Below are positions 1,958 to 35,259 of a stretch of 64,000 nucleotides of DNA, in pieces. A program made the translations under genes and the position numbers. The first letter of the stretch is position 1; the number at the start of each line of letters is the position of its first letter. Under the pieces are notes generated by a model. It saw nothing but the letters and a program-made list of their open reading frames with translations. It was not told the origin of the DNA and did not search any database. Source of the stretch: Diplonema papillatum (taxonomy: Eukaryota > Euglenozoa > Diplonemea > Diplonemida > Diplonemidae); contig JAPJBO010000636.1 of the NCBI GenBank assembly GCA_030068145.1, positions 1-64,000 of the forward strand, read 5' to 3'.

Positions 1958-1999
1958 GGGGGGAAAAAGCCACATAGCACAAACTCATACTTGACAAAG

Positions 2000-3247
2000 A
2001 TGAACGCGGACAACCTCCACGCGGTCCCCCTGGGTCCCGAAGCAGCTGCATCGGGAAGCAGAACGTCCGCGACAGTGCGTGTGGTGCACCTGCCGACGTT
2101 CAAGCAGTTCTCGCTGCAGTTGGACGGGCTGAAGGGCAAGGCAGGGGCGTACGAATCTGTCATCGAGCAGATCGGGTGGACGGGAGCGCGTGTCAGAATG
2201 CGGCGCGGCATGGCCATGATCGAGGCTCCGACACCACCACCGGCGCAGCGAGTACGCGTCGGCGACGAGGAGGCAGACATCGTCGACCTCGAAGAGCTGG
2301 AGAAGCAGCAGCGCGAAGAGCAGAAGAAGGAGAGGGTGCGCAGCCTCGAGCAGCAAATCGAGGGCCTCTCCGCGGCACACTCGCCTAAGCGCCTCCCGGA
2401 CAACAACGCCCCGAGAGGGCCGACTTACTCAAAGGCGGAGTTCGTCGCAGAGTTTGGGAGAAAAGAGGCCGAGAGGGAGTGGCGCATGGCTCTGAGGGCG
2501 CATACTGAGGGCCGAAAGAAGCAACTCGCGCGGCTACGGGCCTTGCTGGGTGAGCTGCAGCCGAAGGCCGAAACAACGGGCGACGCCGACATGCAGGACA
2601 GAGAGGAAACCACCCGCGCCGGAGACGAGACCAGAAACGCTTGGCAAGCATGGGCTCAGCAGCAGCAGCAGCAGCGGGTGACGTGGGAAAAGGCGCGAGC
2701 TGAAGCCCGAGCCTCCTGGGAGGCGATGTACGAGAAGCGGCTCCAAAACTGGGCCGAGGCCCAGGTTTGTATTGCCACGCAGCGCGAGGAAGCAGCGCTC
2801 GTGCGCCAAATGGAGTGGATGGCCGAAGTGGAGAGGAAGCTCGCTGTCTTCGAAACAGAGATGTGTGCCCGGGTGGAGTCACTACTCCCAAGCGTAACCG
2901 CAGACGCCGGGCGGGCACCAACCCCTCCAGCAGCAGATGCGCGAGCACCAGCGCAGCCAAGCCCGAACAAGAAGGGAAAGAAAGCCGAGGCGAAGGCAAA
3001 GAAGGAAGCCGCCGAGAAGGAATTCGCAGAGCAGCTCAAACAGCTCAACCAAGCCACTAACAGAGCGGAGGCCGAGCCGAAATCAAGTGGTACCGAGCAG
3101 GAGTCGAGCGGTGTCGAGCCGAATGCACACGGAGCCGAAACGAAAGCAACCGACGTCGAGCCGAAAGCAAAAGCAGCGAAAGGGGCCAAGCAGCAGACCC
3201 TCAAAGGGATGCTCAAGGGGAACCGGTACAACCCGCTGGAAAGCTAG
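2000..3247 (+). CDS. TE1 ORF1 protein (415 aa), coiled-coil nucleic-acid-binding candidate
   Basis: The ATG at 2000 is the first in this frame after the microsatellite and follows a 42-nt leader, the same leader length as in TE7. The N-terminal region (about 25-85) includes a block ending IGWTGARVRMRRGMAMIEA that matches AGWTGVEVIRVIPKRSKRLAVV in TE7 ORF1. Residues about 95-125 are a charged Glu/Lys/Gln helix; a second charged helical region with a poly-Gln run lies at about 215-300; the C-terminus is Ala/Lys/Glu-rich. The motif PTYSKAEFVAEFGRKEAE (TE7: MTYAKAAFIGLYGRKQGL) and the C-terminal TLKGML (TE7: TLKQMG) are shared. The role, packaging element RNA as in other LINE ORF1s, is inferred. 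No CCHC knuckle is seen. The stop is TAG and ORF2 continues in the same frame. Confidence 0.8.
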   Translation: MNADNLHAVPLGPEAAASGSRTSATVRVVHLPTFKQFSLQLDGLKGKAGAYESVIEQIGWTGARVRMRRGMAMIEAPTPPPAQRVRVGDEEADIVDLEELEKQQREEQKKERVRSLEQQIEGLSAAHSPKRLPDNNAPRGPTYSKAEFVAEFGRKEAEREWRMALRAHTEGRKKQLARLRALLGELQPKAETTGDADMQDREETTRAGDETRNAWQAWAQQQQQQRVTWEKARAEARASWEAMYEKRLQNWAEAQVCIATQREEAALVRQMEWMAEVERKLAVFETEMCARVESLLPSVTADAGRAPTPPAADARAPAQPSPNKKGKKAEAKAKKEAAEKEFAEQLKQLNQATNRAEAEPKSSGTEQESSGVEPNAHGAETKATDVEPKAKAAKGAKQQTLKGMLKGNRYNPLES

Positions 3248-35202: not shown

Positions 35203-35259
35203 GGATGTTGACAACGTGGGCTATACTCCGCTTCAGGGGTTACCCGAAATTGAATTCCA
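35203..35259 (+). other. TE7 3' UTR (57 nt)
   Basis: Identical in kind to the TE3 3' UTR at 15,762-15,818. Contains GGCTATACTCCGCTTCAGG and ends GAATTCC followed by AACACAC. The related segment closes the LINE fragments at 26,690 and 59,128. Confidence 0.75.

Follow-up and report, generated by a model that had tools for sequence, protein, structure and literature searches.

The question raised by this locus is why a series of LINEs in the genome of the free-living euglenozoan Diplonema papillatum should lie head to tail with tracts of (AC)n between them: the AC tracts might be the target into which the elements integrate, a tail that the elements bring with them, or a product of recombination or of assembly. 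We analysed a window of 64,000 nucleotides, the start of contig JAPJBO010000636.1 (contig C636 here), and searched the 271-Mb assembly of this host (2,910 contigs) for further copies.

The nest and its AC tracts

The nest occupies positions 1,958-35,259 and consists of two full-length LINEs (TE1 of family A and TE7 of family C) together with 5'-truncated copies, all on the + strand. The first-pass annotation, drawn from the sequence of the window, had TE1-TE7 all starting right after an AC tract in one orientation, and this was confirmed for seven of seven. It also had their 3' ends running into (AC)n, which is correct for the six intact 3' ends, those of TE1-TE5 and TE7, where (AC)n follows directly; TE6 turned out to be a composite ending in a SINE-like element, S, and not a plain copy. 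The features are as follows.

1170-1342, +: bare (AC)86 left of the H-unit, an empty site; contig C763 has a full-length C at this site
1343-1691, +: H-unit, a repeat of ~350 bp with AC on either side
1692-1957, +: (AC)n, 5' flank of TE1
1958-9077, +: TE1, family A, full length
2000-3247, +: TE1 ORF1, no Pfam match at E 0.1 and no CCHC knuckle
3248-9016, +: TE1 ORF2 (stop to stop), with a weak OTU match (E 0.012), APE, RT and RNase H
9078-9224, +: (AC)n, spacer between TE1 and TE2
9225-13386, +: TE2, family B, 5'-truncated
13387-13638, +: (AC)126, spacer between TE2 and TE3
13639-15818, +: TE3, family C, 5'-truncated, with a 64-bp gap relative to TE7
15819-15842, +: (AC)12, spacer between TE3 and TE4
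15843-21371, +: TE4, family B, 5'-truncated; a frame change near 19134 splits the ORF
21372-21392, +: (AC)n, spacer between TE4 and TE5
21393-26049, +: TE5, family B' (76-77% to B), 5'-truncated
26050-26064, +: (AC)n 3' of TE5
26065-26253, +: TE6a, C-like fragment (77%) without the C 3' end
26254-26690, +: TE6b, SINE-like element S, shortened in its 5' part
27440-27531, +: (AC)n, 5' flank of TE7
27532-35259, +: TE7, family C, full length, 7,728 bp
27574-29385, +: TE7 ORF1, no CCHC knuckle
29386-35202, +: TE7 ORF2 (stop to stop)
29545-29919, +: TE7 OTU domain, DGNC to HYD, Pfam E 9.8e-10
30220-30831, +: TE7 APE-type endonuclease (Pfam; predicted fold resembles LINE-1 EN)
31981-32730, +: TE7 reverse transcriptase, YVDD
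34156-34563, +: TE7 RNase H domain
35023-35112, +: TE7 C-terminal Cys/His module, doubled in B and in several related proteins
35215-35259, +: TE7 conserved 3'-terminal motif ahead of (AC)n
35260-36105, +: (AC)n, 3' flank of TE7
58647-59130, +: SINE-like element S with AC-rich flanks

To the left of the nest we note an RNase H-like fragment (1-531; RVT_3 E 8.3e-7) and, at 540-1691, repeat units of ~350 bp with short inverted ends and AC tracts separating the units, which together we presume could represent a DIRS/VIPER/TATE-type element. On its other side (36157-40327) an open frame of low complexity includes a tandem repeat of 246 bp and a duplication of 1.4 kb (99.9%).

Element families and their proteins

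The elements had been taken for one LINE family. There are at least three: A (TE1), B (TE2 and TE4, 99.4% alike) with a relative B' (TE5, 76-77% to TE2/TE4), and C (TE3 and TE7, 99.7-99.9%); since A, B and C share only 65-67% DNA identity over their alignable parts, we treat them as a group of families. In the composite TE6, the C-like part is 77% like C over 182 bases and ends in a short CA run that C has internally, with S following directly.

The LINE assignment follows from the presence of reverse transcriptase and endonuclease together with 5' truncation and a kept 3' end, and the APE-type assignment from an Exo_endo_phos endonuclease lying N-terminal to the RT in both A and C; no family of restriction-like endonuclease (RLE) appeared in the Pfam scan at E 0.1. 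The OTU domain proposed for the element is well supported in family C, the ORF2 of which matches OTU (9.8e-10), APE endonuclease (1.7e-12), RT (2e-18) and RVT_3 (8.7e-8). In family A, which has a clear APE endonuclease (Pfam E 5.5e-12), the OTU match of 0.012 falls below the cut-off and the DGNC and HYD motifs are readable in the sequence. Related proteins P0007, P0008 and P0009 carry OTU above the cut-off, and in P0003 and P0014 OTU was not matched at E 0.01. A fold prediction for the OTU and APE part (mean pLDDT 76.6) gives an endonuclease matching that of LINE-1, and the OTU part matches OTUD3 by sequence (E 0.0017). At this stage we can only guess at its role: the domain might have ubiquitin at the target as its substrate, or might shield the element's protein.

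Elsewhere in these proteins, the ORF1 of TE1 and that of TE7 have two cysteines each and no CCHC knuckle, and a pattern search located the C-terminal Cys/His module in 9 of 12 scanned group members (not in TE1, P0001 or P0002); the same pattern was not found in P0009. We also observed that the last residues of ORF2, GASAVT or close variants, are nearly constant at the stop codon in A, B, C, P0003, P0004, P0006, P0007 and P0008. In a tree of RT sequences with no labelled R1 or other reference clade, A, B and C form one group (100/100) with other D. papillatum proteins and four ENA proteins, and P0009 is sister to it (99/97).

Junctions and empty sites across the genome

Searches with 400-base 3' ends yielded 825 candidates for C, 786 for B and 464 for A, and the best 40 of each were scored. 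Among the ends sampled from these lists, a sample skewed to the youngest copies with old copies little represented, every one runs into (AC)n and always on the AC strand: 20/20 for A and 20/20 for B (20 places each), and 32/32 for C (30 of the 40 scored places, TE3 and TE7 included), one of the C ends meeting AC after a single G. None of the sampled junctions had GT in place of AC. The exact terminal 24 nt of C, searched exhaustively, occur at 96 sites genome-wide, 75 of them with ACACACAC immediately after; for forward-strand exact C 3' ends, CACACAC lies within 12 nt in 56/58 and is absent in 2/58, the reverse-strand count having been set aside for its overlapping matches. Each of the 40 C 3' ends that were scored has 100% identity across 400 bp, which suggests that family C has been active recently. 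The last 45-60 nt are conserved across the families, and a hairpin there is possible; a covarying hairpin was considered and rejected, with two-sided change in only one of seven pairs in the C group and none of 11 in the A/B group.

For the 5' ends, the best 40 of 189 candidates (A) and the best 40 of 107 (C) were scored. We took 20 A copies from 22 places at 99-100%, leaving out the window's own copy and that on C1559, and 15 C copies; an 87% A subfamily (18 places) was set aside, and five of 19 copies of an 89% C subfamily, C2, were taken separately. The full-length 5' ends lie at an (AC)n tract in 20/20 A copies and 15/15 C copies, mostly as ...CACA/GGGG; among the A copies L066 has a one-base difference in its G/A run and L069 is without the first six bases. 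The other six C places (TE7, L039, L040, L044, L049 and L050) are also at AC, making 21/21 for C. Some of the sampled copies sit in duplicated segments, for instance the C loci L001/L005/L011/L027 and L002/L008/L024, and thus the copies are not all independent. Exact (AC)8 occurs 123,630 and 119,149 times on the two strands, such that (AC)8, counted in either phase with the CA phase assumed equally frequent, stands before ~0.09% of the positions of one strand; the chance of AC at a random junction is thereby ~9e-4, or about 1 in 1,100.

The larger loci gave a similar picture. We resolved 16 C-group 5' ends in 14 of 20 such loci, the other six running off the contig (L031, L033, L034, L036, L043 and L047), and 15 of the 16 lie at AC; in two of these, 9-13 unmatched bases intervene. 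The exception, L046 (C1205), is a C copy that breaks at element position ~4986, and the 5.9 kb ahead of it contain no AC tract. Two other apparent exceptions were dropped: L042 is a chimera whose S-like head starts at AC, and L035/L041 start further upstream at AC. Eleven different 5' breaks in A, B and C are joined to AC, at junctions that were chosen for a preceding AC tract, and B 5' ends come from the window. Microhomology was tried as a rule for these breaks and discarded: as the 11 distinct truncated junctions match 0-3 bases, six of them none, we claim no general role for it. We also note one copy of the 87% A subfamily (G000:C1:72624-73103) that starts, at 72709, two bases after a long AC tract, and this subfamily may share the AC target.

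Three comparisons, all paralogous, set an AC tract lacking the LINE against a filled counterpart. First, L021 and L032/L038 have in common a left part of ~325 bp (92%) with a 35-nt piece of C (C35) at its end; L032/L038 then read C35-(AC)13-D39, where D39 stands for the terminal 39 nt of a further family, D, and L021 reads C35-(AC)n-[1.6 kb C]-(AC)n-D39. The C copies of L021 and L032/L038 have different breaks (~6128 and ~6091) and different identities to TE7 (99.3 versus 99.94%), and are for that reason taken as separate insertions. Second, the H-unit in the window has a bare left AC tract, (AC)86, and TE1 in its right tract, and that in C763 has a full-length C on the left and AC-rich DNA on the right. 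In C763 the 900 bases after this AC-rich DNA gave no match to A, B, C or related proteins, a reverse piece of S is present in the right-hand region, and the right-hand H sequences of the two contigs are 97.8% alike; the outer left flank of C763 is, by eye, a related but different H-type unit, which makes the comparison paralogous and not allelic. Third, C214 (L077) has C to the right of its H-unit where the window has A. From these three comparisons the AC tract most likely preceded insertion, and part of the 3' AC may nevertheless be derived from, or lengthened by, the element.

The first-pass proposal that the AC repeat is the target is therefore supported by the junction samples and the paralogous empty sites. 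Copies elsewhere in the genome that commonly lack AC flanks would speak against it, and in the A, B and C samples this is not what we find, the exceptions being L046, the 2/58 exact C 3' ends and the five of five C2 copies; against its caveat that the element might generate the AC stand the three comparisons above. We consider it highly probable, on the strength of the sequences, that a clade of OTU-bearing APE-type LINEs integrates into (AC)n, in one orientation and with AC on the sense strand, by what we infer to be TPRT. At the sequence level this draws on AC at both ends of full-length and truncated copies, the single orientation, the paralogous AC-bearing empty sites and the head-to-tail nests; the AC on either side, the single orientation, the varying 5' breaks and the retained 3' end are what TPRT at the GT strand would leave. 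The endonuclease would nick the (GT)n strand, the freed (GT) end would prime reverse transcription at the conserved motif that ends the RNA, to which a short AC tail may or may not be attached, and the 5' end of the element would be joined to the remaining AC. AC/GT is a plausible primer. As AC would be retained on either side, every insertion would restore the target and the next copy could land beside it, giving a head-to-tail pile-up. The nests also show how microsatellites can turn into retrotransposon reservoirs.

Alternatively, the AC tracts might be the element's own tail, comparable to poly(A) or (TAA)n and borne in with the insertion, and the target not specific at all. The 3' junction register is fixed, all 20 A and all 20 B ends beginning ACAC, as an inherited tail would give; this register would fit either a precise nick or an AC start inherited in the RNA. 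A tail leaves unexplained the 5' AC of full-length and truncated copies, as well as the AC without LINE at paralogous sites, and with the empty sites disfavouring it we regard this explanation as improbable. It might also be supposed that break repair or gene conversion, and not TPRT, carries existing AC-bounded cassettes from one microsatellite to another. Tandem D39 units 52 bp apart in C411 and the duplicated nests (L032/L038; L031/L035/L041) are of the kind such recombination could leave, but the differing 5' truncations joined straight to AC (the 11 of the AC-picked list) are a LINE signature and the C protein retains APE, RT and RNase H domains and motifs, such that we think recombination a very improbable source of the pattern. 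That AC arrays have collapsed or misjoined contigs to give false AC junctions seems hardly credible, for although some contigs do end inside AC beside a copy (L052, L053, L067 and L103), 31 of the 35 sampled 5' flanks leave the AC tract within the contig, into 22 different 20-base contexts. The remaining four do not leave AC, and three of these lie at a contig end; several of the contexts are the 3' ends of other elements in this group, as expected of nests. The accessible text of the genome paper gives long-read support for one other repeat region and not for these sites (PMC10161547).

Passengers and a natural domain swap

Short passengers (S and the 39-nt and 35-nt 3'-end pieces) use the same type of site as these LINEs, probably by means of the same enzyme. 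The segment at 58,647-59,128 had been listed as a further LINE copy with AC-rich bounds. Its flanks are indeed AC-rich (...ACACACACGGACACACATAG on the left and ACACACACAC on the right), and the segment itself, extending to 59130, is the SINE-like S, 484 bp in length, of which 26254-26690 is a shortened copy. A SINE is a short non-coding element with the 3' end of a partner LINE, and S, with its 484 bp, its many candidate copies and a 3' motif like that of the C group, is a candidate for one, any partner LINE being putative. Across the genome S has 1,968 first-look candidates, of which the 40 best were scored and have 90-100% identity, and S is also present in loci L013, L042 and L025. Judged by eye in the loci examined, complete 5' ends of S (four places) are all at AC-rich sequence, and of the complete 3' ends 6/7 are at AC-rich sequence, some of it decayed; the end at 26690 is followed by CACATACTG. 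Scans of the window revealed no tRNA or Rfam head for S, the Rfam matches being rRNA fragments. In a separate observation, L042:2663-2901 (reverse) has the first 240 nt of S fused to a family C body, resembling a template switch.

Fuller copies of family D are found in L063, L078 and once in L140. D39 stands directly after ACACAC at 58 exact genomic sites, by a search pattern that required the AC, and it occurs alone between AC tracts in differing contexts (L002/L032, L008/L038, L021, L064, L084 and L135-L148). In loci not picked for D39 the shortened D ends have the same start base (all of these but L135-L148), and in L013/L043 the start is two bases later; L021 and L032/L038 derive from one ancestral nest, and hence these shortened ends do not all count as independent. 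For 14 of the 58 D39 sites we took the 80 bases upstream, which exit AC in ten cases, into ten different contexts, and stay within it in four; C411 has three D39 units in tandem. The D39 pattern could alternatively arise from recombination, from tandem copying, or from an RT stop with AC microhomology. We might speculate that anything bounded by AC and bearing the 3' motif is moved by a self-renewing (AC)n system, comprising at least three LINE families, the 484-bp SINE and D39, a reading that we put forward as possible but doubtful. If true, AC would be target, primer partner and cassette boundary at once, with copies making sites that feed later copies, and D39, at 39 nt with nearly constant ends, would be an exceptionally small retroposon.

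Subfamily C2, 89% identical to C, may represent a natural swap of target. At the corresponding 5' point no AC tract is present in 5/5 copies; all five (flanks L086-L090) instead follow ...CACACTAATGCAACAAATT. The C2 protein P0009, on C1570 (L131), is 83-92% identical to C ORF2 over residues 61-240 (OTU) and only 17-52% from the APE onward, in 60-column blocks. On C1570, CACACTAATGCAACAAATT is found again 167 bases past the ORF2 stop after a short CACA run; a duplication of the C2 site is suggested by this one copy, the 3' region of C1260 not being comparable. With its right neighbour TACAACT, the motif (CACACTAATGCAACAAATTTACAACT) has 95 exact copies genome-wide. If C2 is site-specific, target choice would track the APE-RT part and not ORF1-OTU, and with C and C2 having the ORF1-OTU part in common and differing in the remainder of ORF2 and in their sites, the domain that reads the target becomes testable.

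Relatives in other genomes

LINEs of AC repeats are already known, in Mino and, on (TG)n, Togen; what is new here is the diplonemid lineage, the combination of OTU and APE with AC targeting, and the short passengers. This gives, in a free-living euglenozoan, a clade of AC-targeting LINEs with OTU, many near-identical copies, paralogous empty sites and passengers. Waldo, TRAS, SART and other R1-clade LINEs have an APE endonuclease and simple or telomeric repeat targets; to our knowledge none has an OTU domain, and Waldo, TRAS and SART differ from the D. papillatum clade in the repeat unit. CCHC zinc knuckles are a feature of R1-type ORF1, unlike that of TE1 and TE7. The first-pass annotation had rightly pointed to microsatellite LINEs in naming Waldo, and missed the AC-repeat element Mino, a non-LTR element of the R1 clade whose insertion sites are AC repeats, as a shrimp-genome paper states with reference to Kojima and Fujiwara 2003 (PMC3124438). 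The D. papillatum clade resembles Mino in AC-repeat insertion and differs in its host group, in its OTU, RNase H and C-terminal Cys/His modules, and in an ORF1 without CCHC knuckle. According to the accessible text of these sources, Mino and Togen both come from animals (PMC3124438, PMC4640811).

Togen, a NeSL-related LINE of fish, is specific to (TG)n microsatellites, and NeSL-related families are counted as RLE-type, as is the HERO clade, in which some families are microsatellite-specific (PMC4640811, accessible text). In Togen and the NeSL group the RLE lies C-terminal to the RT, in contrast to the APE-type arrangement described here; some HERO families likewise have a microsatellite target in common with the D. 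papillatum clade, with RLE in place of APE. NeSL and Utopia of nematodes have a cysteine protease domain, Ulp1-like, at the N terminus of an RLE-bearing LINE protein (same source), such that an N-terminal cysteine protease is present in both groups, Ulp1-like with RLE there and OTU-type with APE here. Among Euglenozoa, the trypanosomatid Ingi/L1Tc elements encode APE, RT and RNase H, Ingi having a variable poly(A) tail, TSDs and Pr77 (as given in accessible parts of PMC12278014). The order APE, RT, RNase H is the same in the D. papillatum clade, but in place of a poly(A) tail its sampled 3' ends abut (AC)n.

Our searches of open-licence PMC papers turned up no report of AC-specific or OTU-bearing LINEs in diplonemids. 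The genome paper counts about 2,500 retroelement gene models, its accessible text containing no target analysis (PMC10161547), and it also reports scattered 28S pieces in the D. papillatum genome, with which the fragments of SSU and LSU rRNA that we observed in the window at 42615-42752, 53227-53656, 54951-55222 and 57397-57816 agree.
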